Shown: positions 35,869 to 57,162 of the stretch, one piece after another
Position numbering within the stretch: position 1 is the stretch's first letter
Layout: every line of letters begins with the position of its first letter
Assembly: GCF_900162665.1 (NCBI RefSeq)
Contig: NZ_LT727810.1
Span: 403,067 to 467,066, forward strand
DNA from: Oceanobacillus sojae
GTDB lineage: Bacteria; Bacillota; Bacilli; Bacillales; Amphibacillaceae
Direction of reading: 5' to 3'
DNA length: 64,000 nt
The notes under the pieces: model-generated
What the model was told of the DNA's origin: nothing
Seen by the model: the letters and a program-made list of their open reading frames with translations, nothing else
Database searches by the model: none
Translations under genes and position numbers: made by a program

Positions 35869-36186
35869 AGTGAATGAAAAAATAGTACAGAGATATCAAG
35901 ACATTTTGTTGGAGAAGAAGAGGGTATCTTTTTCTAACAGATGTCTTTTTACATTTAAAAATAACATTTATTTCCTTGATTTTATGTTAGTAAGTGATAA
36001 AAAAAACAAATTCATGGAAGCATTAGGTCTGTTTATCCCGCATCCGGAAAAGATTCTAAAAAGCTAATAGTATTTTGGCAACAAGCGCGTGACAAAGTTG
36101 CATTTTGATTAGGTTGTTTTCCCTATATAACAGAGAATAAAATAAAGGTAAGAACACAATCCAAAAAAATGAAAGGGGTTAACAAC
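35869..36186. other. Intergenic region before the mannitol operon
   Basis: These 318 bases hold a probable terminator (listed next) and the unlocated mtlA promoter; TATATA/TATAAC near 36124-36131 may be its -10. No cre-like site was recognised. A short frame at 35825-36067 is not protein-like and overlaps ywrA. Confidence 0.5.
35900..35952 (+). terminator. Probable terminator after the CHR pair
   Basis: AAGACAT (35900) pairs with ATGTCTT (near 35947), and TGTTGGA with TCTAACA inside it, with a large loop and TTTTTA after. Confidence 0.5.
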
Positions 36187-37623
36187 ATGTCAACACAAAA
36201 TAACGGTATACGTGCAAAGGTACAAAAGTTTGGCAGCAACCTCAGCGGAATGGTTATGCCAAATATTGGCGCATTTATTGCGTGGGGACTTATTACTGCA
36301 TTATTTATTCCGGATGGCTGGATTCCAAATGAAAATATGGCGTCCCTAGTTGATCCAATGATCAAATATTTATTACCATTATTGATTGGTTTCACTGGCG
36401 GCCGTATAGTCTATGATATCCGTGGAGGAGTTGTCGGTGCTACTGCGACAATGGGGGTTATCGTCGGAGCTGACCAGCCGATGTTCCTTGGAGCAATGAT
36501 AATGGGACCGCTGGCCGGTTACCTGATGAAGAAAATTGATGATTTATTCCAGGCGAAAATTCGTCAGGGCTTTGAAATGCTATATAATAATTTCTCAGCC
36601 GGGATTTTAGCTGCTATTCTTGCTATGATAGCTGTAGCAGGAATTGGACCATTAGTATCTGGTTTGACAAATGCTTTAGCAAAAGGCGTCGAAGCTATTG
36701 TGAACGCAGGTTTACTGCCATTAACCAGTATCATTTTAGAGCCTGCCAAGACACTGTTTTTAAATAATGCCATTAACCATGGTATACTGACGCCGCTTGG
36801 TACAGAACAGTCATTAGAAACAGGGAAATCTATTCTTTTCCTTCTGGAAGCAAACCCTGGACCGGGGTTGGGAATTTTACTTGCTTTTGCTTTCTTTGGA
36901 AAAGGCGTGTCAAAGGCATCTGCACCAGGAGCAGCAATTATTCAATTCTTAGGCGGTATTCATGAAATTTATTTCCCTTACATCTTAATGAAGCCTACAT
37001 TGATTATTGCAGCCATTTTCGGTGGTATGTCAGGTATATTTACACTTCAGTTATTTGATGCAGGATTGAGAGCTGCTGCTTCACCAGGAAGTATTTTCGC
37101 AGTTATAGCAATGACGCCAGGTAATCTGAACAGCTATATAGGGGTAATCTTAAGTGTCCTGATAGCAGCTGCAGTTTCCTTTGCCATTGCGTCCTTTATC
37201 CTGAAGACCTCCAAAGGCGGAGAAGAGGACCTTACTGCTTCCACTGAAAAAATGGAAGCTATGAAAGGGAAGAAGAGCAGTGTCAGCAGTTCATTGACAG
37301 GGGATAAAGAAGCAGATAATGGAGAAACTCCTGTTAAGGAGACAGCAGAAGTGAACAAAATTATCTTTGCCTGTGATGCCGGCATGGGTTCCAGTGCAAT
37401 GGGAGCTTCCCTGTTAAAGAATAAATTCAAGAAGAGCGGAATTGACATTGATGTAACGAATAAAGCAATTAATGAAATTCCGGAAGATGCTGATATTATT
37501 ATTACACAAAAAACGCTGACAGACCGCGCTAAGGCAAAACGTCCGGACGCAGAGCATATCTCTGTAGATAATTTCTTAAACAGTCCGCGTTATGATGAAC
37601 TGGTGGAGCGGTTAAAAGACTAA
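36187..37623 (+). CDS. mtlA: Mannitol-specific PTS enzyme IICB
   Basis: A 478-residue membrane permease-kinase. The EIIC domain (about residues 1-340) starts RAKVQKFGSNLSGMVMPNIGAFIAWGL and has GGIHEIYFPYILMKP, the mannitol-family substrate loop. The EIIB domain (about 385-478) has the phosphorylated Cys in FACDAGMGSSAMGASLLKNK. There is no EIIA, which is supplied by mtlF. The ATG at 36187 follows GAAAGGGG; an in-frame ATG six codons earlier has no site. Neighbours mtlR, mtlF and mtlD confirm mannitol as substrate. Confidence 0.94.
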   Translation: MSTQNNGIRAKVQKFGSNLSGMVMPNIGAFIAWGLITALFIPDGWIPNENMASLVDPMIKYLLPLLIGFTGGRIVYDIRGGVVGATATMGVIVGADQPMFLGAMIMGPLAGYLMKKIDDLFQAKIRQGFEMLYNNFSAGILAAILAMIAVAGIGPLVSGLTNALAKGVEAIVNAGLLPLTSIILEPAKTLFLNNAINHGILTPLGTEQSLETGKSILFLLEANPGPGLGILLAFAFFGKGVSKASAPGAAIIQFLGGIHEIYFPYILMKPTLIIAAIFGGMSGIFTLQLFDAGLRAAASPGSIFAVIAMTPGNLNSYIGVILSVLIAAAVSFAIASFILKTSKGGEEDLTASTEKMEAMKGKKSSVSSSLTGDKEADNGETPVKETAEVNKIIFACDAGMGSSAMGASLLKNKFKKSGIDIDVTNKAINEIPEDADIIITQKTLTDRAKAKRPDAEHISVDNFLNSPRYDELVERLKD

Positions 37624-37649
37624 TACATCTGAAACAGTTATAATATGAT

Positions 37650-37714
37650 AATAGCCTTCTCTTTTTAAGTGTCATTTTGGTTGGACTTTTGACATCCTAT
37701 AAGAGAGGGCTATT
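37650..37714 (+). other. Long hairpin between mtlA and mtlR
   Basis: A 14-bp stem (37650-37663 with 37701-37714, one G-U pair) surrounds a further TGTCA/TGACA pairing. No T run follows; the 3' arm ends seven bases before the mtlR ribosome site. It could protect the mtlA message end or lower mtlR translation. Confidence 0.55.
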
Positions 37715-37736
37715 GGCAGAAGGGAGGTGAATGGGG

Positions 37737-39836
37737 ATGTACCTTACCAGTCGTGAACGGAATATCCTCACCTTTTTATTAGCATCTGAAGAAGAAAAAA
37801 CAGTAAAGCAAGTAGCTGATAAACTGAACGTCAGTACCAGAACCATTCACCGTGAGTTAAAGAGACTGGAAGATGTATTAGCAACGTATCAGCTGATATT
37901 TCATAAGAAATCAGGTTCAGGTATAACGATTTATGGGGACGTGCAAAAGAAGAAGCAGTTAAGAGATAAGGTTGCACAAATGGATGGAGTGGAATTATCC
38001 AAAGAGGAAAGACAGTCTATTTTATTAAATACGTTAATACAGGTTCATGAACCAATTAAATTATTTACTCTGTCCAGTGAATTAAATGTGACTATTGCAA
38101 CCATTTCACAGGATTTGGACGATATGGAAGAGCGTATGAAAGCTTTTGACCTGAAGCTTGTCCGTAAAAAAGGATATGGCGTAGAGGTTCAGGGCAGTGA
38201 GGTAAAAAAACGGGCGATATTGAGTAATTTAATCTCCCGGCATATTGATTTATTTGAATTTGTAGAGAAAATAAAAACAAAAACAAAAGAAGAAAAAGCA
38301 AAGGGAGAAACAATTTCTGACCGTTTATTAGGTCTTGTTGATCCGAAGAAATTAGAAATAATAGAAGAACAGGTCCAGGAAATTGGCAGGGAGCTTCCTT
38401 ATCATCTGGCTGACAGTGCTTATGTCGGGCTTGTTGTTCATTTAGCACTAGCTATTGAAAGACTGCAAAAAGGCGATACCATACATTTTGATGAAGTGTA
38501 TAAACAGGAGATTCAGGGTAAACAGGAGTATCAGATTGCTGCCAAGCTGATTGAGAGGCTTAGTGAAGCATTTTCAATAGATATCCCAGAGGATGAGATT
38601 GGCTATATTACGATGCATTTAATGGGGGCAAAGCTCAGAGAGAATCAGTCCTATCTGCTGGAAGAGACAAGTATAGACCTGGCACATCGGGCAAAAGAGC
38701 TTATCCGCAAGGTTGGAGAACAGCTGCATATTGATTTATCGGGAAATAACAGGTTTTTAAATGATTTAACAACACATTTAAAGCCGGCTGTTTACCGCAT
38801 CAAGCAGCAAATGAATATTCATAATCCGATGCTGGATGAGATTAAGCGGGATTATCTGGAGCTGTTTGAAGTAATTGAAGAATGTGTTACATCTGTTTTT
38901 CCGGATTTAAAGATTCCTGACGAAGAGATTGCTTATATTGTCTTGCATTTTGCAGCTACTCTTCTGCAGACAGAGCAGCATAAGGATGTCCGTGTGCTTG
39001 TTATCTGTTCTACAGGAATTGGTACTTCCAAAATGCTGGCCTCCAAATTGGAGCGTAAGTTTCCGGAAATAGAGATAGCGAAGCATCAATCTATTTTTGA
39101 TTTGAATCAGGCAGAGCTTTTAGAATACGATGTCATTGTCTCAACCGTCCTTTTAGAAAATCTGGGTCAGAGCTATGTGCATATTTCACCGATGCTGACA
39201 GATAACGAGGCGGCAAAAGTAAAAACAGCTCTAAGAAAAGCCGCTTTAACAGGACGGCCGAAACCATCTGTTAAAACAAATAAGATTATGGAGGGGGATT
39301 TTCTAGTTAACCTCCAGGAAATGCATCGTTATTCTGATGTGATTTTACGCGTCTTAAATCAATTTAAATTATTCCATCTGGAGGATAATAACACACCCTT
39401 TTTAGAATTAATCTGTCATCAATTACAGCATTACAGTATCATTGATGATAAAGATGTGCTGCATGAAAAACTTATCAGGCGGGAAGCACAAGGCGGGCTT
39501 GGAATTCCTGATTCACAGCTTGCTTTATTCCATACCAGATCAAATACAGTCAATGGCCCCGGCTTCTTTATTTTTCAATTACCAAAAGAAATAGAGCTTT
39601 TAGGGATGGACGGGGTAAATATGAAAGTATCACGTATTTTAATGATGCTTGCGCCGGCTTCCACGCATAAAGAAGCATTAGATATATTAAGCTATCTCAG
39701 CGGATTAATTGTCCAGGATGATGACTATGTGCAGCTGCTCCAGGAAGCGGAAGAAAAAGAAATCAGCCAATTTTTAACAAACCAGTTTCAACTATTTATT
39801 CAGGAAAAATTTTATCATGCGGAAAACCGTTTATAA
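37737..39836 (+). CDS. mtlR: Mannitol operon activator with PRD and PTS-like domains
   Basis: A 699-residue DNA-binding activator. Order of domains: N-terminal HTH (LTSRERNILTFLLASEE, then the recognition part VSTRTIHRELKRLE), a second HTH near residue 100, PRD1 (about 200-300), PRD2 (about 310-405), an EIIB-Gat-like domain with CSTGIGTSKMLASKLERK (about 420-500), and a C-terminal EIIA-like domain (about 545-690). Phosphorylation of PRD and PTS-like domains tunes MtlR in B. subtilis. The ATG at 37737 is nine bases from AGGGAGG; an ATG two codons earlier is too close. Confidence 0.92.
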   Translation: MYLTSRERNILTFLLASEEEKTVKQVADKLNVSTRTIHRELKRLEDVLATYQLIFHKKSGSGITIYGDVQKKKQLRDKVAQMDGVELSKEERQSILLNTLIQVHEPIKLFTLSSELNVTIATISQDLDDMEERMKAFDLKLVRKKGYGVEVQGSEVKKRAILSNLISRHIDLFEFVEKIKTKTKEEKAKGETISDRLLGLVDPKKLEIIEEQVQEIGRELPYHLADSAYVGLVVHLALAIERLQKGDTIHFDEVYKQEIQGKQEYQIAAKLIERLSEAFSIDIPEDEIGYITMHLMGAKLRENQSYLLEETSIDLAHRAKELIRKVGEQLHIDLSGNNRFLNDLTTHLKPAVYRIKQQMNIHNPMLDEIKRDYLELFEVIEECVTSVFPDLKIPDEEIAYIVLHFAATLLQTEQHKDVRVLVICSTGIGTSKMLASKLERKFPEIEIAKHQSIFDLNQAELLEYDVIVSTVLLENLGQSYVHISPMLTDNEAAKVKTALRKAALTGRPKPSVKTNKIMEGDFLVNLQEMHRYSDVILRVLNQFKLFHLEDNNTPFLELICHQLQHYSIIDDKDVLHEKLIRREAQGGLGIPDSQLALFHTRSNTVNGPGFFIFQLPKEIELLGMDGVNMKVSRILMMLAPASTHKEALDILSYLSGLIVQDDDYVQLLQEAEEKEISQFLTNQFQLFIQEKFYHAENRL

Positions 39837-39905
39837 AACGGTAATTCAGACATGAAACAGTAAAAAAAGATACTACATCCAAGTTTTACAAAGGAGTGCA
39901 TATCC

Positions 39906-40346
39906 ATGGCAAAAGAAATTTTAAGCACAGAGAATATTGAATTAGGTGTACAAGTCTCGTCTAAGGAGGAAGCAGTTCGTTATGTCGGCGGTATTTTATT
40001 AAATAATGGCTATGTGAAAGAAAATTATATTGATAAAATGCTGGAGCGTGAAGAAATTGCAACGACCTTTATGGGGAATTCTCTAGCAATTCCGCACGGT
40101 ACAGAAGATGCGAAAAAAGAAGTTATAGAAACAGGGCTTTCTGTTGTAACTGTTCCAGACGGTGTTGACTTTGGCGATGGAAATATTGTGAAGCTTTTGA
40201 TCGGTATTGCTGGAAAAGGAGATGAGCATTTAGAAATTCTTTCGCAAATTGCTATTATTTGTTCAGAGGAAGAGAATGTAGAGAAATTGATACAGGCATC
40301 TTCCAAGGAGGAAATCATTACACTCCTTAATGAGGTGAATGAATAA
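39906..40346 (+). CDS. mtlF: Mannitol-specific PTS enzyme IIA
   Basis: A 146-residue EIIA of the fructose/mannitol family that passes phosphate from HPr to MtlA. The active His is in NSLAIPHGTEDAKKEV (about residue 64). Length and the N-terminal LSTENIELGVQVSSKEEAVRYVG block are typical. AAAGGAGTG precedes the ATG. Its stop codon overlaps the mtlD start by one base. Confidence 0.94.
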   Translation: MAKEILSTENIELGVQVSSKEEAVRYVGGILLNNGYVKENYIDKMLEREEIATTFMGNSLAIPHGTEDAKKEVIETGLSVVTVPDGVDFGDGNIVKLLIGIAGKGDEHLEILSQIAIICSEEENVEKLIQASSKEEIITLLNEVNE

Positions 40347-41494
40347 TGAAGGCTGTTCATTTTGGAGCCGGAAATATCGGCAGAGGTTTTATTGGACTTT
40401 TACTGGACCAGTCAGGATATGAGGTTACCTTTGTAGACGTCAATGATGAGGTAATCACAGCAATTAATCAGGATAAATCCTACCAGGTTCATTTTGCTGA
40501 TGACACAAGTGAACCCAGCACTGTCCAGCATATCTCGGGCATAAATAGTATGAAAGATCCTAAAGCTGTAACAAAAGCAATTATAGAAGCTGACATTGTA
40601 ACAACAGCAGTCGGACCGAATATCCTGCCAGTTATCGCCAAAGCGGTTGCAAAAGGTCTTGCAGAAAGAATTGATATTCACCGGAAGCCGCTGGCGATTA
40701 TTGCTTGTGAAAATATGATTGGCGGGAGTACGTTATTAAAGGAATATGTCTATCAGGAAATTGAGGAAGTGGACAGGGAAGGGTTCGATGATTTATTTAG
40801 CTTTCCGGATGCTGCTGTAGATAGAATTGTACCGAATCAATCGAATGAGAATTTACTGGATGTTACGGTGGAGCCTTATTATGAATGGGTTGTGGAAAAA
40901 GCATTTATTCAAGGTGATCTGCCTGAAATTAAAGGAATCACCTATGTAGATGAACTTGGACCATATATTGAACGGAAGCTGTTCACTGTAAACACCGGGC
41001 ATGCAACAACAGCCTATTTAGGAAGCTATCATGGGCATAAAACCATTTTTGAAGCTTTACAGGATAAAACAATTCTTGATATGTTAAACGGAGCATTACA
41101 GGAGTCAGGCCAGGCTTTAATAAAGGCATATGGGTTTGATGTGGCAGCACATGAAGCTTATATTCAGAAAATCATCGGCAGATTTCAGAATCCACATATC
41201 TCTGATGAGGTAAGCCGGGTTGCCAGAGGGCCTCTCCGCAAGCTGGGCCCGAAAGACCGCTTTGTAAGGCCGGCGAGCATGTATTTGGAGTTTACCTCTG
41301 CTGCTCCCGAATATCTGTCTAAAGCAATGGCAGCAGCTTTACTATTTGATAATCCAGCAGATGAAGAGGCTGTACAGCTTCAGAAAATGATTCAGGAAAA
41401 AGGGGTAAAGGCAGCTTTTACCGAGGTAAGCGGATTGGAGCAAGATCATCCTATTACGCAGGCTGTGTTATCAGAATATGAAAAAATGAATTGA
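40346..41494 (+). CDS. mtlD: Mannitol-1-phosphate 5-dehydrogenase
   Basis: A 382-residue polyol-specific long-chain dehydrogenase that converts mannitol 1-phosphate to fructose 6-phosphate with NAD. The Rossmann motif HFGAGNIGRGFIGLLL is at the N-terminus. The catalytic Lys/His block NTGHATTAYLGSYHGHKTIFEAL lies near residue 215. It is the last gene of mtlA-mtlR-mtlF-mtlD, overlapping mtlF by one base, and a terminator follows. Confidence 0.95.
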   Translation: MKAVHFGAGNIGRGFIGLLLDQSGYEVTFVDVNDEVITAINQDKSYQVHFADDTSEPSTVQHISGINSMKDPKAVTKAIIEADIVTTAVGPNILPVIAKAVAKGLAERIDIHRKPLAIIACENMIGGSTLLKEYVYQEIEEVDREGFDDLFSFPDAAVDRIVPNQSNENLLDVTVEPYYEWVVEKAFIQGDLPEIKGITYVDELGPYIERKLFTVNTGHATTAYLGSYHGHKTIFEALQDKTILDMLNGALQESGQALIKAYGFDVAAHEAYIQKIIGRFQNPHISDEVSRVARGPLRKLGPKDRFVRPASMYLEFTSAAPEYLSKAMAAALLFDNPADEEAVQLQKMIQEKGVKAAFTEVSGLEQDHPITQAVLSEYEKMN

Positions 41495-50013: not shown

Positions 50014-50152
50014 ATCCATTGGAGCCCTTTAATTAAACAGAAATGAAGTAGTGAAAATCAGAGAAAGGAGGAAATCTCCATTTTAATTTTAAAAAATAGT
50101 GGAAATATTCATTTTTGTTGTTATAATAATTTTATAACCCATTAATCAACTT

Positions 50153-50196
50153 AAATTCATTTTTCTCTTTGTATGAATTTCGATATACTATATATG
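50153..50196 (+). promoter_or_regulatory. Candidate promoter and operator of the RpiR-NanE-PTS operon
   Basis: TTTGTA (50168-50173) and TATATG (50191-50196) are 17 bases apart. An inverted repeat, AAATTCAT (50153-50160) and ATGAATTT (50173-50180), straddles the -35 box, a suitable place for the RpiR-type regulator encoded next. The remaining 140 bases back to the terminator show a TATAAT near 50121 but no -35. Confidence 0.4.
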
Positions 50197-50267
50197 CAAG
50201 GGAACAGCAGGAAAGAAATACTTCATCAGTATTATACTGTTTGGGGATATCGAAGAAGGGAGAGAAG

Positions 50268-51158
50268 ATGAAATTGAACAAACAGAAAGAGTTTCATGAT
50301 GAGGTTCAATTTATAGCTAAAATATCGAGTTATCAGAATACATTTACAAAATCAGAAAAAAAAGTATCCGATTTTGTACAGGCAAATATGGAATCGACGA
50401 TTTATATGACAGTAACAGAATTAGCAGAACGTATTGGCGTAGGAGAAACAACAGTTCTTCGTTTCTGCAGAAAAATGGGTTTTAAAGGATATCAGTCTTT
50501 TAAAATGGCTGTTACAAAAGAAGTGGCAAAATCTACGCATGATGTATTTGATGAAACAAACAAAGAAGAATTTAATGAAGCGGATGAAGTGCATTTTATT
50601 ATTCAAAAAGCACTGGCTAATAACATTCAGGCTTTAAAAGAAACCGTAAGTATTATAGATACAAGTGAATTAGAAAAAGCTATCGATTGCATTATTTCAA
50701 GTAAGCGAATCGTCTTTTATGGAGTTGGTGTATCAGGGAATACAGCAGCAGATGCCAGAGATAAATTTATTCGAATTGGACGCTCTACAGAAGCTTTTGT
50801 AGATTCGCATATTCAGGCTATGTCTGCAACAACTTTGACAAAGGAAGATATGGCAGTAGGCATTTCTGTAAGCGGTAGCACCAAGGATACTGTTGATGCT
50901 TTAAAAATTGCCAAAGAAAATGGAGCGAAGATTTTATCCATTACTCATTTTACACGGTCGCCAATTACAAAAATATCAGATATTGTTCTGCTGACAGGCG
51001 GAAGAGAAACAGCGCTTCAGGGCGGATCCATGTCTGCAAAGATTGCGCAATTATTTGTAATTGATATGCTTTGTAATGGTGTCGCCAGCCAATTAAAAGA
51101 TACAGCACTTCAATTTAAAGAGGCGACTGCAAAGGCAGTAGCTGACAAAGCTTATTAA
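50268..51158 (+). CDS. MurR/RpiR family transcriptional regulator
   Basis: A 296-residue regulator with an N-terminal HTH_6 domain (about residues 15-95; MTVTELAERIGVGETTVLRFCRKMGFKGYQSFK) and a C-terminal SIS domain that binds phosphosugars (RIVFYGVGVSGNTAADARDKF, then VGISVSGSTKDTVDALKIAKENGA). This family controls catabolism of amino sugars and other sugar phosphates. I chose the ATG at 50268 with GGGAGAG upstream; the longer frame to 50169 covers the promoter. It heads the seven-gene operon and is probably its local regulator. Confidence 0.9.
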   Translation: MKLNKQKEFHDEVQFIAKISSYQNTFTKSEKKVSDFVQANMESTIYMTVTELAERIGVGETTVLRFCRKMGFKGYQSFKMAVTKEVAKSTHDVFDETNKEEFNEADEVHFIIQKALANNIQALKETVSIIDTSELEKAIDCIISSKRIVFYGVGVSGNTAADARDKFIRIGRSTEAFVDSHIQAMSATTLTKEDMAVGISVSGSTKDTVDALKIAKENGAKILSITHFTRSPITKISDIVLLTGGRETALQGGSMSAKIAQLFVIDMLCNGVASQLKDTALQFKEATAKAVADKAY

Positions 51159-51190
51159 TAAATACTGGATGGAGAAAGGAGCTGTAAAAA

Positions 51191-51742
51191 TTGAAATATA
51201 TTCCGTTGGCAATGGTAAGAAATAATTTATCAGATATTCCTCAATTCTCTCTGCCTGATGGATACCGTATCCGATTCTATGAAAAAGGGGATGAACATCA
51301 TTGGGCACGAATTGAAACAAGTGTGGAAGAGTTTAAAAACGAAGCAGCAGCATTAGAGCATTTCAAAAAAGAATTTGGTCCGTATACAGACGAAATGACG
51401 AAGCGCTGCCTGTTTATTGAAACGGAAGAAGGAGAAGAAATAGCAACGACTACTGCCTGGTATGGTGATTTAAAAGGGGATGAAGAAACAACAGGCAGAA
51501 TTCATTGGGTAGGCGTTACTCCGGCATATCAAGGTAAAAAACTTGCCAAGCCTTTATTGACAGCGGCAATGAATACCTTAGCTGAATATCATTCCAGCGC
51601 ATATCTCACCACGCAGACAACAAGCTTTCAAGCGATTAATATGTATTTAAATTACGGATTTGAACCGTATCTTACGGAACCGGCCTGTGAAGAAGGCTGG
51701 GGATTAATGGAACAGGCGCTAAAACGAAAAATTTTAAAATGA
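51191..51742 (+). CDS. GNAT family N-acetyltransferase
   Basis: A 183-residue acetyl-CoA-dependent transferase. The GNAT core is seen in IHWVGVTPAYQGKKLAKPLLTAAMNTL (motif A, acetyl-CoA loop) and the C-terminal TTQTTSFQAINMYLNYGFEP (motif B). It starts at a TTG preceded by AAAGGAG, 32 bases after the regulator gene. Inside this operon with NanE it may acetylate an amino sugar phosphate, but the substrate is inferred only from neighbours. Confidence 0.85.
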   Translation: MKYIPLAMVRNNLSDIPQFSLPDGYRIRFYEKGDEHHWARIETSVEEFKNEAAALEHFKKEFGPYTDEMTKRCLFIETEEGEEIATTTAWYGDLKGDEETTGRIHWVGVTPAYQGKKLAKPLLTAAMNTLAEYHSSAYLTTQTTSFQAINMYLNYGFEPYLTEPACEEGWGLMEQALKRKILK

Positions 51743-51753
51743 AGTGAAAGAGA

Positions 51754-51784
51754 TGTTCAAAAAAGTCATCTATGGTTTTGAACA
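51754..51784. repeat. Miniature derivative of repeat B inside the operon (31 bp)
   Basis: TGTTCAAAA (51754-51762) and TTTTGAACA (51776-51784) are the same ends as repeat B at 62031-62192, here only 13 bases apart. It lies between the acetyltransferase and HAD genes and has no T tract. It looks like an internally deleted copy; as RNA it would form a 9-bp hairpin. Confidence 0.5.
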
Positions 51785-51805
51785 CGTATTTAAAGGAGGA
51801 AGACA

Positions 51806-52462
51806 ATGATTAAAGCAGCTATTTTTGATTTTGACGGACTGATTCTGGATACTGAAACTGCTTGGTTTGATGCTTATAAAGAGGTTCTCCGGAGTCAATT
51901 TCAATTTGATTTACCACTGGGGGAATTTGTGAAATGTGTTGGATCAGATGATACCGTCCTTTTTTCGTACCTGCAGAATGAATTGGACAGCCGGCTGAAT
52001 GTTAATTCTATTCGTAACGAGGCCAGGAAACTGCACAGCCAATTCGTGCGCGATGCAAAAGCTAGAGAAGGCGTGACGGATTATCTGAAAGATGCAAAAG
52101 ATGAAGGCTTAACGGTTGCTCTGGCAACGAGTTCAACAACTGAATGGGCAACCACACATTTAACGAATTTAAATTTGCTTTCTTATTTTGATTTTCTGGT
52201 CACCCAGGATATGGTAGAAAGAGTGAAGCCGGCACCGGATATCTTTTTAAAAACACTTGAAAAATTAGATTTAGAGGCTCGGGAAGCAGTAGTTTTTGAG
52301 GATTCTTTAAATGGTTTAATTGCTGCACAGGAGGTAAATCTACCGACAGTTATTATTCCGAATCCAGTTACTGCTGCATTACCTTTTGAGAATTATCATT
52401 TAAAATTAAATTCGATGACAGATATGCCTTTACAGGATATTTTAAAAACACTGAACAGATAA
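51806..52462 (+). CDS. HAD phosphatase / beta-phosphoglucomutase-like (YhcW-like)
   Basis: A 218-residue HAD subfamily IA protein. Motif I is FDFDGLILDTETAWFDAY, motif II is VALATSS, the motif III Lys is in VKPAPDIFLK and motif IV is VVFEDSLNGLIAAQ. DFDGLILDTE is typical of sugar phosphatases and beta-phosphoglucomutases with a helical cap. The ribosome site AAAGGAGG precedes the ATG. Its place between the acetyltransferase and NanE suggests a sugar-phosphate substrate. Confidence 0.85.
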   Translation: MIKAAIFDFDGLILDTETAWFDAYKEVLRSQFQFDLPLGEFVKCVGSDDTVLFSYLQNELDSRLNVNSIRNEARKLHSQFVRDAKAREGVTDYLKDAKDEGLTVALATSSTTEWATTHLTNLNLLSYFDFLVTQDMVERVKPAPDIFLKTLEKLDLEAREAVVFEDSLNGLIAAQEVNLPTVIIPNPVTAALPFENYHLKLNSMTDMPLQDILKTLNR

Positions 52463-52552
52463 ACAGAAACTCTATTAAAGGAGAGATTTGCTTCTTCGTA
52501 ATGAATTTTAAATGCTTATCGTGCACAAATGAATAGAAGGTCAGGTGGAAAA

Positions 52553-53221
52553 ATGTTAAAAGAATTAGAAGGTGGATTAGTTGTTTCCTGTCAAGCTTTA
52601 GAGGGTGAGCCGATGCATGGCTCATCTCATATGGCTTCGATGGCTCTGGCAGCAAAAGAAGGTAGAGCTGCGGGTATTCGGGCGAATGGACCGGATGATA
52701 TTAAGGCAATTAAAAAGAAAGTTGATTTACCGGTTATTGGTATTTTGAAAAAGGAATATCCAGGCTTTCAGGCTTTTATTACAGCGACAAAAGCAGATGC
52801 AGAGCTGATTGCAGAGGCCGGAGCCGATATCATAGCTGTGGATGCAACAAATGGCACAAGGCCGGAAGAGTTATCGGAATTAATCGAGTATATAAAAAAG
52901 GATTTAAATAAACTGGTAATGGCGGATGTAGCAACACTCCAAGAGGGCGTACAGGCAGAAGCCCTGGGATGCGATATGGTAGGGACAACGTTATCCGGAT
53001 ATACAGAGGATACAAAAGAAAGACCCAGACCGGATTTTGATTTAATGCAAAATTTAGTAAATACGTTGAAGGTGCCTGTAATAGCAGAAGGGAATGTTGA
53101 TACCCCGGAAAAAGCAAAAAAGGCTCTTGATATCGGTGTAGCATTTGTTGTCGTTGGGGGAGCGATTACAAGGCCTCAATTAATTACCAGAAAATTTACA
53201 GAAAGACTGAAAAGAAAATGA
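52553..53221 (+). CDS. nanE: N-acetylmannosamine-6-phosphate 2-epimerase
   Basis: A 222-residue TIM-barrel epimerase converting ManNAc-6-P to GlcNAc-6-P. The family pattern GGLVVSCQALEGEPMHGSSHMASMALAA at the N-terminus, the catalytic Lys region PVIGILKKEYPG, IIAVDATNGTRPE and the phosphate-binding GNVDTPEKAKKALDIGVAFVVVGGAITRP are all present. AGGTGG precedes the ATG at 52553; an upstream ATG (52529) has no site. It overlaps the ROK gene by four bases. There is no sialic acid lyase (NanA) nearby, which is unusual for a nanE operon. Confidence 0.93.
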   Translation: MLKELEGGLVVSCQALEGEPMHGSSHMASMALAAKEGRAAGIRANGPDDIKAIKKKVDLPVIGILKKEYPGFQAFITATKADAELIAEAGADIIAVDATNGTRPEELSELIEYIKKDLNKLVMADVATLQEGVQAEALGCDMVGTTLSGYTEDTKERPRPDFDLMQNLVNTLKVPVIAEGNVDTPEKAKKALDIGVAFVVVGGAITRPQLITRKFTERLKRK

Positions 53222-54102
53222 GAAATGCAATCGGAGTAGACATTGGTGGCACAAAAATAGCAATTGGACTGGTTCAAGAGGATGGAGTGGTTTTGAAAAA
53301 GGAGGAATTTTCCACCTTAAAAAATGAAAAAGGAGAGAAAATTCTTCAAATGATTGTAGAGAAATTACCTTCCTTCTATGATGAAAATACCACAGGTATC
53401 GGTGTGGGATCAGCTGGACAGATTGGGCTATCCGGCACAGTGCTTTCGGCGACGGATACATTCAAGGATTGGCAGGGTCTGCCGATTCAAACGTGGCTGG
53501 AAAAAGCGACAGGGCAGCACGTTGCAGTTGTTAATGACGTGCAGGCAATGGGATTGGGGGAGCAATTCCTTGGGACAGGGAAGAATGTAAATAATTTTCT
53601 TTGTGTAGCAATCGGAACAGGAATTGGAGGAGCAATTATAGCAGATGGAAAACTTCAGCGCGGCCATTCTGGAGCAGCAGGAGAAGTCGGCCACATGGTG
53701 TTATACCCAAACGGGAGGAAATGTCCATGCGGAAATCAAGGCTGTTTCGAGGCATATGCTTCCGGCACAGCGTTAGAGGAAATATATGCTGAAACTTTTA
53801 AGGAGGTGAAGAAAGGACAGGACATTTTTAAGGAAGCTTTAGATCATAACGAGAATGCAGCTTTTATCATCAATCAGTATGTAGAAAATGTAGCAATTGG
53901 ATTGACAACGCTGACAAATATGTTTAATCCAGAAAAAATTATTCTGGGAGGCGGGGTATCCGGCTCATTGTCACCGTTTCTCACAGTAATTCGTGAGCAG
54001 GTTCAAAGCAATGTAAATAAAATCAATAAGGATGTAAAAATTGAATTATCATCACTCGGCGGGAACGCCATGATTATAGGTGCAGCAAGCCTGGTATTGT
54101 AA
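53218..54102 (+). CDS. ROK family sugar kinase, probable N-acetylmannosamine kinase
   Basis: A 294-residue ROK protein without a DNA-binding domain, so an enzyme and not a repressor. The ATP-binding DIGGTKIAIGLV lies at residues 8-19 and the catalytic Asp is in VVNDVQAMGLGEQ. The ROK zinc site is GHMVLYPNGRKCPCGNQGCFEAYASG. Its start overlaps nanE (ATGA), which argues for ManNAc or a related amino sugar as substrate, as for NanK. A glucokinase-like activity cannot be excluded. Confidence 0.87.
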   Translation: MRNAIGVDIGGTKIAIGLVQEDGVVLKKEEFSTLKNEKGEKILQMIVEKLPSFYDENTTGIGVGSAGQIGLSGTVLSATDTFKDWQGLPIQTWLEKATGQHVAVVNDVQAMGLGEQFLGTGKNVNNFLCVAIGTGIGGAIIADGKLQRGHSGAAGEVGHMVLYPNGRKCPCGNQGCFEAYASGTALEEIYAETFKEVKKGQDIFKEALDHNENAAFIINQYVENVAIGLTTLTNMFNPEKIILGGGVSGSLSPFLTVIREQVQSNVNKINKDVKIELSSLGGNAMIIGAASLVL

Positions 54103-54132
54103 TTAAGTCTATCAAATATAAAGGAGATGGGT

Positions 54133-55137
54133 ATGTTGAATAAATTAAATGTAGCTGTAATTGGTATGGGAGTAATGGGGCAATCACATGCAAGAATTTA
54201 TGCGGAGCTGCCTCATGTAAATCTAGTGGCAGTCTATGACATTAATCAGGAGCACGCAGAAAATATGGCTAAACAATTTCAGACCACTGCTGTTCATGAT
54301 TTAGAAGAATTGTTGAAGGATGAGAATGTACATGCAGTCAGTATCTGTACATCAGATGATCAGCATTTTGAGGTTGCCTGCAAGGCTTGTGATTATCATA
54401 AGCATATTCTGATTGAAAAACCATTGGCTGATAATGTAGAAGATGCACAAGGAATTATTGATAAAGTGAAAGAAACCGGCGTAAAAATGATGGTTGGCCA
54501 CACATTACGCTGGGACCCAAGATATTATCATGCAAAACAGGCAGTGGCAGCAGGGAAAATCGGTGAACCGGTTCATCTTCATTCCCGGCGTAACAATTCC
54601 TATCAGAATGGAAGAAGGTTAAAAGGAAGAACATCTGTCGTGATGTTTTTAGGTGTTCATGATTTAGATGCTATTGAGTGGATTACAGGAGACAAGATTG
54701 TGGAAGTTTCTGCAGTTGAAGTAAGAAAGCGCTTAAAAGAATTTGATACTGCTGATGCTATTATCACCACACTAAAATTTGAATCTGGAACAATCGGAAG
54801 CTATGAAACAAGCTGGGTGTTACCGGATAACCATGTAGAACTGGATGCCAAGCTTGATATTACCGGAACAGACGGTGTGGTTAATATTGATATTCTCGAT
54901 CAGTCGATTCGCGTATTTGAAAAAGACCATAAGATCACATTCCCGGACACGATGTATGGAGTGGATTTATACGGGACACAGACTGGAATCATGAAAGAAG
55001 AACTGAGCACTTTTGTGAATAATGTTTTAAATGATAAAGACTTTCCTATTTCTGTGGAAGAAGCGCTGAGAGCAGTCAAAGTTGTCAGAAGTATCGAACA
55101 ATCACTTGAAACTGGTCAGCCGGTAAAAGTGAATTGA
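54133..55137 (+). CDS. Gfo/Idh/MocA family oxidoreductase
   Basis: A 334-residue NAD(P)-dependent dehydrogenase. The Rossmann motif VAVIGMGVMGQSHARIYAEL is at the N-terminus. The family EKP motif, with its Lys, is in HILIEKPLADNVEDA, and the C-terminal domain has the catalytic-site motif GVHDLDAIEWI. Members oxidise or reduce sugars, inositols and sugar derivatives. Two ATGs lie six bases apart; 54133 has proper spacing to AAGGAG. It follows the kinase by 30 bases and precedes the PTS gene by 36. Confidence 0.87.
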   Translation: MLNKLNVAVIGMGVMGQSHARIYAELPHVNLVAVYDINQEHAENMAKQFQTTAVHDLEELLKDENVHAVSICTSDDQHFEVACKACDYHKHILIEKPLADNVEDAQGIIDKVKETGVKMMVGHTLRWDPRYYHAKQAVAAGKIGEPVHLHSRRNNSYQNGRRLKGRTSVVMFLGVHDLDAIEWITGDKIVEVSAVEVRKRLKEFDTADAIITTLKFESGTIGSYETSWVLPDNHVELDAKLDITGTDGVVNIDILDQSIRVFEKDHKITFPDTMYGVDLYGTQTGIMKEELSTFVNNVLNDKDFPISVEEALRAVKVVRSIEQSLETGQPVKVN

Positions 55138-55173
55138 TAAAAAGCTGGTCATAACAAAAGGGGGCTGTAACGA

Positions 55174-57057
55174 ATGAGTGGGCAAAAGAAGAGTATTCGT
55201 TCAAGGATTCAAACGTATGGCAGTAATTTAAGCAGTATGATTATCCCTAACCTGGGAGCTTTTATCGCATGGGGGATTTTAACAGCAATCGCTGTACCGA
55301 CACAGTTGGAGCTTTTCACTAATTTCATCAGTCCGATGCTGAATTATCTGCTTCCATTACTGATTGGTTTTACCGGCGGACGTCTGCTTCATGATTTTCG
55401 CGGAGGGGTTGTAGGAGCTGTTGCAACAATGGGGGTCATTGTTGCAGCAGATATACCGATGTTTATCGGCGCAATGATTATGGGTCCGCTGGGCGGATTA
55501 GCTATCAAAAAATTTGACCAAGTCTTTGAAGGTAAAATTAAATCTGGTTTCGAACTGCTGGTTAATAATTTTTCGGCAGGAATTATCGGTGCAATATTGG
55601 CATTATTTGGATCAATCGCTATTGGACCATTGGTGAGTGCGTTTACTAAAGTGCTGGGAGCAGGCGTGGACTTTTTGGTAAATCATGGACTTCTTCCGCT
55701 TGTCAGTATCTTTATTGAACCAGGGAAAGTAATGTTTCTCAACAATGCGATTAACCAGGGAATTTTAAATCCGATTGCAAGCAGTCAAATAGAAGAAACC
55801 GGGAAATCTATTCTTTACTTACTCGAAGCAAACCCTGGTCCCGGTTTAGGTATATTACTGGCATTTATGCTTTTTGGCAAAGGAGCAACAAAGGCCTCTG
55901 CTTATGGAGCTGGAATTATTCATTTTATCGGGGGGATTCATGAAATTTATTTCCCGTATGTATTAATGAAACCGCTTTTAATTATTGCAGCTATTTTAGG
56001 CGGAATGACAGGTATATTTACGTTAACAATATTTGATGCCGGTTTAGTAAGTGTAGCTTCGCCAGGTAGTATTATCTCTATATTGTTAATGACAGCTTCA
56101 GATAGTTACATCGGCGTCATTTTAAGCGTTCTGTTTGCGACAGCCGTATCGTTTGCCGTTGCATCGGTTATTCTGAAGTTTGATAAAAAAGGTGACAATG
56201 AAGACCTTGCAGAAGCAAGTAAAAAAATGGAAGCGATAAAAGGGAAGAAAAGCAGTGTTGTTTCCGGGCTGAGCAATTCTGGTCAAACTGGAAAAAATGA
56301 TGCAGCAATGGATTTTGGAAATGTAAAGCATATTATATTTGCTTGTGATGCAGGCCTTGGCTCAAGCGCTATGGGAGCTTCGCTGGTGAAAAAGAAACTA
56401 AAAGCTGCAGGATATGGGGAGATTACTGTAAAAAATATTGCCATCAGTAATTTGCCGACCGAAGCAGATATTATTTTCACACATAAAGAGCTGACAGACC
56501 GGGCAAAAGCCAAGCAGCCTGATGCTTATCATGTTTCTATTGATAACTTCCTAAACAGTCCATCCTATGATGAAGTTGTAGAAAAAATTAAGAATGCCGG
56601 AAGCTCTGAAAACGGGGATAAAATAAATGAAATATTGACAGAAGACAATATCAAGCTGTCCGGGGAAGCGAAGGATAAAGAGCAGGCAATCGCTGAAGCA
56701 GGCAGAATCCTTGTGGAGCAGGGGTACGTTTCCGATGATTATGTTGAGAAAATGTTCGAAAGAGAGAAAAGTGTATCAACGTATATGGGAAATCTCTTAG
56801 CTATTCCTCATGGTACAGATAATGCGAAAGAAGAAGTCTATCAATCTGGCTTGGCCATTGTAATTTATGATGACCCAATAGATTGGGATGGAAATGAAGT
56901 AAGATTAGTGATTGGTATTGCCGGAAAAGGGAATGCGCACCTTGAGTTACTTTCTTCTATAGCTACCAGCTGCTCTGAATTAGAAAATGTGGAGCATTTA
57001 ATTAAGATAAAAAATAAAAAAGATGTTATTGCGTTCTTTTCAGAGGGAGAAGAGTAG
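55174..57057 (+). CDS. Mannitol-family PTS enzyme IICBA (fused), substrate unknown
   Basis: A 627-residue three-domain PTS transporter. EIIC (about residues 1-340) is closely similar to MtlA at 36187 (IQTYGSNLSSMIIPNLGAFIAWGIL, GGIHEIYFPYVLMKP). EIIB (about 385-475) has the active Cys in FACDAGLGSSAMGASLVKKK. EIIA (about 485-625) has the active His in NLLAIPHGTDNAKEEV. The mannitol operon of this genome has separate EIICB and EIIA, so this is a distinct paralogue. It is the last gene of the RpiR-GNAT-HAD-nanE-ROK-Gfo operon, which implies a substrate other than mannitol, perhaps an amino sugar or its alditol. Confidence 0.88.
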   Translation: MSGQKKSIRSRIQTYGSNLSSMIIPNLGAFIAWGILTAIAVPTQLELFTNFISPMLNYLLPLLIGFTGGRLLHDFRGGVVGAVATMGVIVAADIPMFIGAMIMGPLGGLAIKKFDQVFEGKIKSGFELLVNNFSAGIIGAILALFGSIAIGPLVSAFTKVLGAGVDFLVNHGLLPLVSIFIEPGKVMFLNNAINQGILNPIASSQIEETGKSILYLLEANPGPGLGILLAFMLFGKGATKASAYGAGIIHFIGGIHEIYFPYVLMKPLLIIAAILGGMTGIFTLTIFDAGLVSVASPGSIISILLMTASDSYIGVILSVLFATAVSFAVASVILKFDKKGDNEDLAEASKKMEAIKGKKSSVVSGLSNSGQTGKNDAAMDFGNVKHIIFACDAGLGSSAMGASLVKKKLKAAGYGEITVKNIAISNLPTEADIIFTHKELTDRAKAKQPDAYHVSIDNFLNSPSYDEVVEKIKNAGSSENGDKINEILTEDNIKLSGEAKDKEQAIAEAGRILVEQGYVSDDYVEKMFEREKSVSTYMGNLLAIPHGTDNAKEEVYQSGLAIVIYDDPIDWDGNEVRLVIGIAGKGNAHLELLSSIATSCSELENVEHLIKIKNKKDVIAFFSEGEE

Positions 57058-57076
57058 TCTTTAAGAATAATAAATA

Positions 57077-57114
57077 AATCACCGTATCCAGTTTATTGGA
57101 TGCGGTGATTTTGT
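57077..57114 (+). terminator. Terminator after the PTS IICBA gene
   Basis: AATCACCGTATCCA pairs with TGGATGCGGTGATT (one wobble) around a six-base loop, followed by TTG and a T-rich tail. Confidence 0.8.
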
Positions 57115-57162
57115 CTGTTTCCAGGGTTGATTCACAGCGCAGAAACAAATTTGAAATGAAGT

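Follow-up and report, generated by a model that had tools for sequence, protein, structure and literature searches.

The stretch of DNA analysed here, which we call the window, comprises 64,000 nucleotides of an Oceanobacillus genome of 4.8 Mb in 18 contigs (RefSeq assembly GCF_900162665.1, contig NZ_LT727810.1, positions 403,067 to 467,066). Among the genomes compared, O. sojae and O. neutriphilus are its closest named relatives. Our subject is a set of seven co-directional genes on its plus strand, all open, at 50268-57057, which encodes the epimerase NanE, a mannitol-family phosphotransferase system (PTS) and five further proteins, and which may serve the catabolism of a manno-configured amino-sugar alditol. 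The features of this operon are as follows, with positions counted in the window.

50100-50127, plus strand: promoter-like site with an extended -10 element, the best of 19 in the region (10 of 12 matches); a candidate
50153-50180, no strand assigned: inverted repeat with 8-bp arms and a 12-bp spacer, found by eye; a candidate RpiR operator
50268-51158, plus strand: RpiR-family regulator (HTH_6 and SIS domains)
51191-51742, plus strand: GNAT acetyltransferase, found in the Oceanobacillus operons only
51806-52462, plus strand: HAD phosphatase, nearest to hexitol phosphatases and below the HxpB cut-off
52553-53221, plus strand: NanE, N-acetylmannosamine 6-phosphate (ManNAc-6-P) 2-epimerase, 293.5 bits against a cut-off of 189
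53218-54102, plus strand: ROK sugar kinase, below the cut-offs for N-acetylmannosamine (ManNAc) kinases
54127-55137, plus strand: Gfo/Idh/MocA-family enzyme with an NAD-type fold, below every NCBIfam equivalog cut-off
55174-57057, plus strand: fused PTS IICBA of the mannitol family, in a separate clade with Gln195
57076-57111, plus strand: terminator-like hairpin of 16 pairs, closing the operon

In gene order, the intergenic gaps are 32, 63, 66, -4, 24 and 36 bases. The NanE reading frame opens at 52529, and the ATG at 52553 is the preferred start on account of its better ribosome-binding site; with this likelier start the gap between HAD and NanE is 90 bases (a hand count) instead of 66. The first-pass annotation of this DNA, made from the letters alone, was right that the genes share one strand, gaps of at most 90 bases and one terminator, and wrong in counting two overlaps, the only one being that of NanE and ROK (4 bp). 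By eye, the DxDG motif of HAD, the EKP and HDxD motifs of Gfo/Idh, the zinc-site cysteines of ROK, the IIB Cys and the IIA His look intact.

Terminator-like sites number 8 in the region against 5.4 in shuffled sequence, and promoter-like sites 19 against 20.1. Because the latter are no commoner than in the shuffles, we treat the promoter-like site and the inverted repeat only as candidates. The promoter-like site is conserved across three Oceanobacillus (the window, O. sojae and O. neutriphilus), and downstream of it the inverted repeat has the same arms in the window as in O. neutriphilus, while the O. sojae copy shows a single mismatch. The RpiR protein that may bind there probably senses a sugar phosphate of the pathway, by analogy with NanR of pneumococci, a ManNAc-6-P-binding regulator (PMC12713135). 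A scan of the operon region with one exact pattern gave no CcpA sites.

None of the seven genes is nanA or mtlD, as the first-pass annotation had said of the operon. Having looked at the operon only, it missed a complete mannitol operon, mtlA-mtlR-mtlF-mtlD, 9 kb upstream in the window at 36169-41494, with mtlD at 40346-41494. Its mtlA (IICB) and mtlD exceed the NCBIfam cut-offs and its IIA gene is of PTS type; mtlR is named by eye, no NCBIfam model matching it at 1e-30. Genome-wide, TIGR00851 finds only two mtlA-type proteins, both in the window. The genes nagA and nanA were also looked for across the genome. The former is present elsewhere (375.6 bits, cut-off 225.65). No nanA scores above the cut-off, the best match to TIGR00683 having 142.4 bits against 382, although that model exceeds its cut-off in just one of 14 control genomes and a divergent NanA could be missed. 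On this result we rejected a reading of the locus as a sialic-acid operon.

The gene arrangement is not due to chance, since the operon recurs in two further species and its core in four other genera. All seven genes, including GNAT, are also found in O. sojae and O. neutriphilus, with 87-98% protein identity, and a search with the Gfo/Idh protein finds the operon in 3 of 28 genomes of the genus. Outside the genus, a core of six functions without GNAT (RpiR, NanE, Gfo/Idh, mannitol-type PTS, HAD and ROK) occurs in three other genera, one of them in another class, and a decayed copy of it in a fourth (genome G148, locus L040:7333-11992; G and L numbers are our handles for genomes and loci), where no NanE or ROK homolog adjoins and the PTS match contains an internal TAG. 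The core functions are thus complete in the window, O. sojae, O. neutriphilus, G103, G061 and G1186; G103 and G061 share one gene order, RpiR, NanE, Gfo/Idh, IICB, HAD, IIA, ROK.

These examples come from Gfo/Idh searches of genome samples that overlap, so that their counts are not additive. Among 159 genomes of the family, 16 have a match at 1e-40. The six already described (the window, O. sojae, O. neutriphilus, G103, G061, G148) are among them; for nine of the other ten, the view took in roughly 4 kb (18 kb as well in the case of G012) and contained no NanE, and the remaining one, G048, lies outside the loci inspected for neighbours. The 397 genomes of the order gave two further relatives, G501 and G536, with no NanE within 19 kb, and the 398 of the class added G566. 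In 348 genomes of the phylum there were 11 matches including the window's own, and we inspected eight regions from 7 of the 10 other genomes, G914, G1177 and G1190 being seen as loci of about 4 kb only. G1186 holds the complete PTS set; G1083, G1042 and G1198 combine NanE and Gfo/Idh with an ATP-binding cassette (ABC) transporter; and in G1211, G1167 (two loci) and G1227 no NanE was seen. Nothing further came from the order groups to which G566 and G1186 belong, which are small (2 and 22 genomes, respectively). A search of a plasmid collection with the PTS matched 135 records, all below 60% identity; of the four opened, one carries an annotated mtl operon and three have no annotation in the matching stretch.

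By score the PTS would be called a mannitol transporter: it exceeds the cut-offs both of mannitol IICBA NF011663 (766.6 against 589 bits) and of mtlA TIGR00851 (492.4 against 468.4 bits). It is 63% identical over 480 residues to the window's own MtlA, and shares 54-56% identity with its counterparts at the other PTS loci. A tree of 51 MtlA-family proteins (built after removing 11 rows, namely three duplicates, two partial sequences and six distant proteins that have Phe at position 195) nevertheless unites the PTSs of the seven loci, three from Oceanobacillus and four others, in one clade with support of 100/99. Placing the Oceanobacillus PTSs with all ordinary MtlAs is rejected at p-AU 0.004 (approximately unbiased test), a weak test because the tree does not join the ordinary MtlAs into a single clade. 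The residue at E. coli position 195 is Gln in all seven PTSs of the clade, whereas it is His in all 33 ordinary MtlA-like proteins, most of them classed as ordinary by sequence rather than by neighbours. The His195 of E. coli MtlA presumably matters for mannitol binding. With a clade of its own and an entire mtl operon 9 kb upstream, the PTS is probably not for mannitol; the first-pass annotation had also taken it to serve another compound. On the same two grounds we rejected a reading of the locus as a mannitol operon. The curated NCBI name "mannitol IICBA" therefore misleads here, as this clade probably carries something else.

We had also considered a Gln/His exchange at two PTS positions as a mark of the clade and dropped it, since the His near position 250 occurs in ordinary MtlAs as well and Gln195 in other alditol-type PTSs. 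That Gln195 is shared in this way fits an alditol other than mannitol and nothing narrower. Where the neighbours of the other MtlA-family proteins with Gln195 were read, they are mostly MtlD-like dehydrogenases, in several cases together with ribulose-phosphate-epimerase-type and SIS genes. One such locus, L116:1089-7718, has the PTS with all three kinds of neighbour plus a transketolase, and L117, L118, L121, L122 and L115:9172-13529 are similar. Their appearance is that of operons for further alditols, which annotation would call mannitol operons.

The loci with ABC transporters offer a second comparison. In four of them (G566, G1198, G1083 and G1042), NanE, Gfo/Idh, RpiR and a kinase are accompanied by an ABC transporter in place of the PTS. 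The G566 locus reads Gfo/Idh, NanE, RpiR, ROK, substrate-binding protein, permease, permease, and that of G1198 has the same genes in a different order. In both G1083 and G1042 the kinase is of the BadF type and the binding protein of the oligopeptide type, and a beta-lactamase-fold gene lies in the locus; in G1042 the kinase is fused to NanE (a single protein of 574 residues, L070:10256-11980) and a MurQ gene is also present. HAD homologs (reading frames of at least 150 amino acids, E <= 1e-12) occur in 7 of 7 PTS loci and in 0 of the 4 NanE-bearing ABC loci. On this pattern above all we place the phosphatase directly after the PTS and have the Gfo/Idh enzyme and the kinase act on the free sugar. 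The first-pass annotation had the Gfo/Idh enzyme act on the phosphorylated PTS product; prior dephosphorylation is likelier, given that the ABC loci keep Gfo/Idh, kinase and NanE without a HAD homolog. Nor does acetylation, which it had taken as a step of the pathway, belong to the core, GNAT being restricted to the three Oceanobacillus operons among the loci compared. Loci in which an ABC transporter replaces PTS plus phosphatase while the downstream enzymes stay the same amount to a natural experiment on plugging two kinds of uptake into a single pathway, which can thereby be tested in several ordinary bacilli.

We infer the following order of steps. The mannitol-family IICBA would import and phosphorylate an amino alditol, the HAD phosphatase would strip the phosphate that the PTS had added, and the NAD-type Gfo/Idh enzyme would oxidise the free compound to ManNAc, which ROK would phosphorylate at C6 and NanE would convert, as ManNAc-6-P, to N-acetylglucosamine 6-phosphate (GlcNAc-6-P) for consumption via NagA and a putative NagB. 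Removing a phosphate only to add another would make sense if the PTS phosphate sat on the future aldehyde carbon, which would be the case for an alditol phosphorylated at C1. As a substrate, N-acetyl-D-mannosaminitol fits best, being mannitol-shaped and one oxidation away from ManNAc, and in Oceanobacillus the GNAT enzyme would also admit un-acetylated 2-amino-2-deoxy-D-mannitol, by acetylating it. In Bacillus and Streptomyces, deoxynojirimycin synthesis proceeds through the latter compound (PMC10231450). The claim of the first-pass annotation that an amino-sugar route enters at NanE as GlcNAc-6-P finds support in the NanE score and in the presence of nagA.

Residues 4-220 of NanE align end to end with the solved C. 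perfringens enzyme; it is 53% and 49% identical to the NanE proteins of G103 and G061, and 48% and 46% identical to the two paralogs that the genome encodes. The closest relatives of ROK are glucokinases and ManNAc kinases, but it scores 133.6 and 163.9 bits against NanK models with cut-offs of 450 and 283, which leaves a family assignment. The nearest relatives of HAD are a T. maritima sugar phosphatase and the mannitol-1-phosphate dehydrogenase/phosphatase MtlD; among NCBIfam models, all three HADs tested match HxpB best, each below its cut-off (108.7 against 191 bits for that of the operon). GNAT has no relative in the PDB at E <= 0.001. A profile search with Gfo/Idh lists 3ezy (2.5e-49) and inositol dehydrogenases first, with YjhC (6o15, 5.8e-29) and NanOx (6z3b, 1.2e-25) further away, and UDP-GlcNAc 3-dehydrogenase is among its two best NCBIfam models (200.3 bits, cut-off 450). 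A structure predicted for it from three near-identical sequences had a mean predicted local distance difference test score of 51 and was not used.

The Gfo/Idh proteins of the PTS operons have more than one origin. Those of the Oceanobacillus type group with the protein of the ABC-fed G566 locus (62% identity, support 100/100), and those of the G103 type are placed elsewhere in the tree, loosely with the ABC-fed G1083 and G1198. A single clade of Gfo/Idh from all PTS operons is rejected (p-AU 2e-10), as is one of all NanE-linked Gfo/Idh (p-AU 0.0003), both values being softer than they appear because the groups were named after the tree had been seen. NanE and ROK of the Oceanobacillus and G103 types do not group together either, in trees that are weakly resolved. 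Despite their separate clades, the NanE-linked Gfo/Idh proteins share residues in the binding region: at 13 signature positions, ten proteins from NanE/PTS loci (O. sojae being omitted as a near duplicate) match the window's residues at 11-13, and of 56 other relatives five, which have no NanE within the stretch inspected, agree at 10-11, a sixth at 8 and the other 50 at 1-5; the positions were picked from this same comparison, which is thus no independent test. The gene sets thus seem to have come together on two or more occasions, drawing on different Gfo/Idh lineages but on a single PTS clade, and such repetition speaks for a functional link among the components.

We give the catabolism of a manno-configured amino-sugar alditol, taken loosely as architecture and amino-alditol substrate jointly, a probability of roughly 0.45. 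The architecture by itself, with phosphate off, oxidation, phosphate on and then NanE, is rather probable, and the exact substrate proposed is a tentative choice. Several points weigh against the amino-alditol reading. Gfo/Idh enzymes usually oxidise ring carbons, and conversion of an alditol to an aldehyde is known from few relatives only. We know of no report of N-acetylmannosaminitol as a natural nutrient. None of HAD, ROK and Gfo/Idh reaches the cut-off of a substrate-specific model. Gln195 is found in 8 of 11 other MtlA-family proteins as well, and HAD homologs (30% and 27% identity) in two other MtlA-family PTS loci, L115 and L124, beside MtlD-like genes. The comparison with ABC transporters comprises four loci, the G566 contig being just 8.9 kb long, and the beta-lactamase-fold genes adjoining two of the loci, with MurQ at one of them, suggest cell-wall sugars for those two.

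The strongest rival is a recycling of NAD as in YjhC and NanOx, in which the Gfo/Idh enzyme would open an anhydro sugar or a ManNAc glycoside via a keto intermediate and so free ManNAc for ROK and NanE. Other enzymes of the family act on ring carbons, the two ABC-fed loci beside cell-wall-type genes would suit such substrates, and there is a precedent, in that YjhC, a Gfo/Idh protein of sialic-acid operons, works by NAD recycling (PMC7315737). We nevertheless consider this explanation unlikely. We rejected a close kinship of the window's Gfo/Idh with YjhC and NanOx, since inositol dehydrogenases and an uncharacterised dehydrogenase are its closer relatives; a PTS of the mannitol type points to a polyol in open-chain form; and sialic acid itself does not fit as the substrate, no nanA scoring above the cut-off in the genome.

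Less probable again is that the PTS takes ManNAc or mannosamine straight to the 6-phosphate for NanE, with ROK, HAD and Gfo/Idh providing side reactions or salvage. Such a simple route is likely at two other PTS-plus-NanE loci of this genome, where the PTS is of the glucose and the mannose type. At our operon, it would leave HAD, ROK and Gfo/Idh unexplained though they are conserved with the PTS clade, the PTS is of the mannitol family, and the ABC-fed loci retain Gfo/Idh without any PTS. A slightly poorer candidate still is a ring epimerisation or C3 oxidation, by which another N-acetylhexosamine (for example the allo, altro or talo form) would be reconfigured via a keto sugar made by Gfo/Idh before reaching NanE: the match to UDP-GlcNAc 3-dehydrogenase favours it, but a second reductase is usually needed and none is encoded in the operon, and the mannitol-type PTS is again unexplained. 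That the PTS is a second mannitol transporter with unrelated neighbours, as its scores above both mannitol cut-offs would allow, is highly improbable given the full mtl operon upstream, the separate clade without His195, the lack of mtlD and the recurrence of the same partners in five genera.

Every part of the operon comes from a known family, and its general plan, sugar in and amino-sugar phosphate out via NanE, is already known. With sialic-acid (nan) operons, including the NanOx/YjhC variant, it shares NanE, a ROK kinase, RpiR, Gfo/Idh and the exit at GlcNAc-6-P; unlike them, it has no nanA above the cut-off, a PTS in place of the sialic-acid transporter, an added HAD and a Gfo/Idh that is not near YjhC. 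With the mannitol operon mtlA-mtlR-mtlF-mtlD it has in common a PTS of the same family that passes the NCBI mannitol cut-offs, but mtlD and mtlR are missing, Gln replaces His195 and the clade is separate. The other alditol operons of L116 and its relatives likewise have an MtlA-family PTS with Gln195, whereas their MtlD-like dehydrogenase, ribulose-phosphate-epimerase-type and SIS genes come without amino-sugar enzymes.

Among the matches listed in the open literature, outside which most subscription papers lie, neither this gene set nor amino-alditol catabolism is described, in line with the first-pass annotation; its account of precedents was incomplete, as it did not consider the Gfo/Idh proteins of NanE/NanK operons characterised as YjhC and NanOx. 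"Mannosaminitol" occurs in that literature inside words, and the cases examined are a reference-list citation of a synthase structure. It is possible, if somewhat doubtful, that we are looking at an undescribed amino-alditol pathway, with its own PTS clade, a phosphatase-dehydrogenase-kinase relay that moves the phosphate to C6, a gene set assembled at least twice and ABC-fed counterparts. If so, it would be an extra route into amino-sugar metabolism and would open a new class of nutrients, amino alditols, which to our knowledge are not recognised as bacterial food.

The genome also holds two more strong NanE genes and one weak match. At L007:8648-11971, NanE adjoins a PTS of the glucose type and a divergently oriented RpiR gene, and at L008:8252-13227 a PTS of the mannose type together with RpiR and MurQ genes, so that three distinct PTS families feed NanE within one bacterium. 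These two loci resemble operons for ManNAc-type sugars and share PTS, NanE, RpiR and the lack of nanA with ours; they differ in their PTS types and have no adjoining Gfo/Idh, HAD or ROK. Contrary to what the first-pass annotation had implied, NanE with a PTS and without nanA is therefore not unusual in itself. A few kb from the NanE/MurQ locus, L008:2583-6909 carries a reverse-transcriptase gene, an unnamed open reading frame and a DDE transposase gene. Elsewhere, at L068:8712-17341 and L072:1974-9932, Gfo/Idh relatives that have most signature residues lie beside a tungsten-type aldehyde ferredoxin oxidoreductase and sugar ABC genes.

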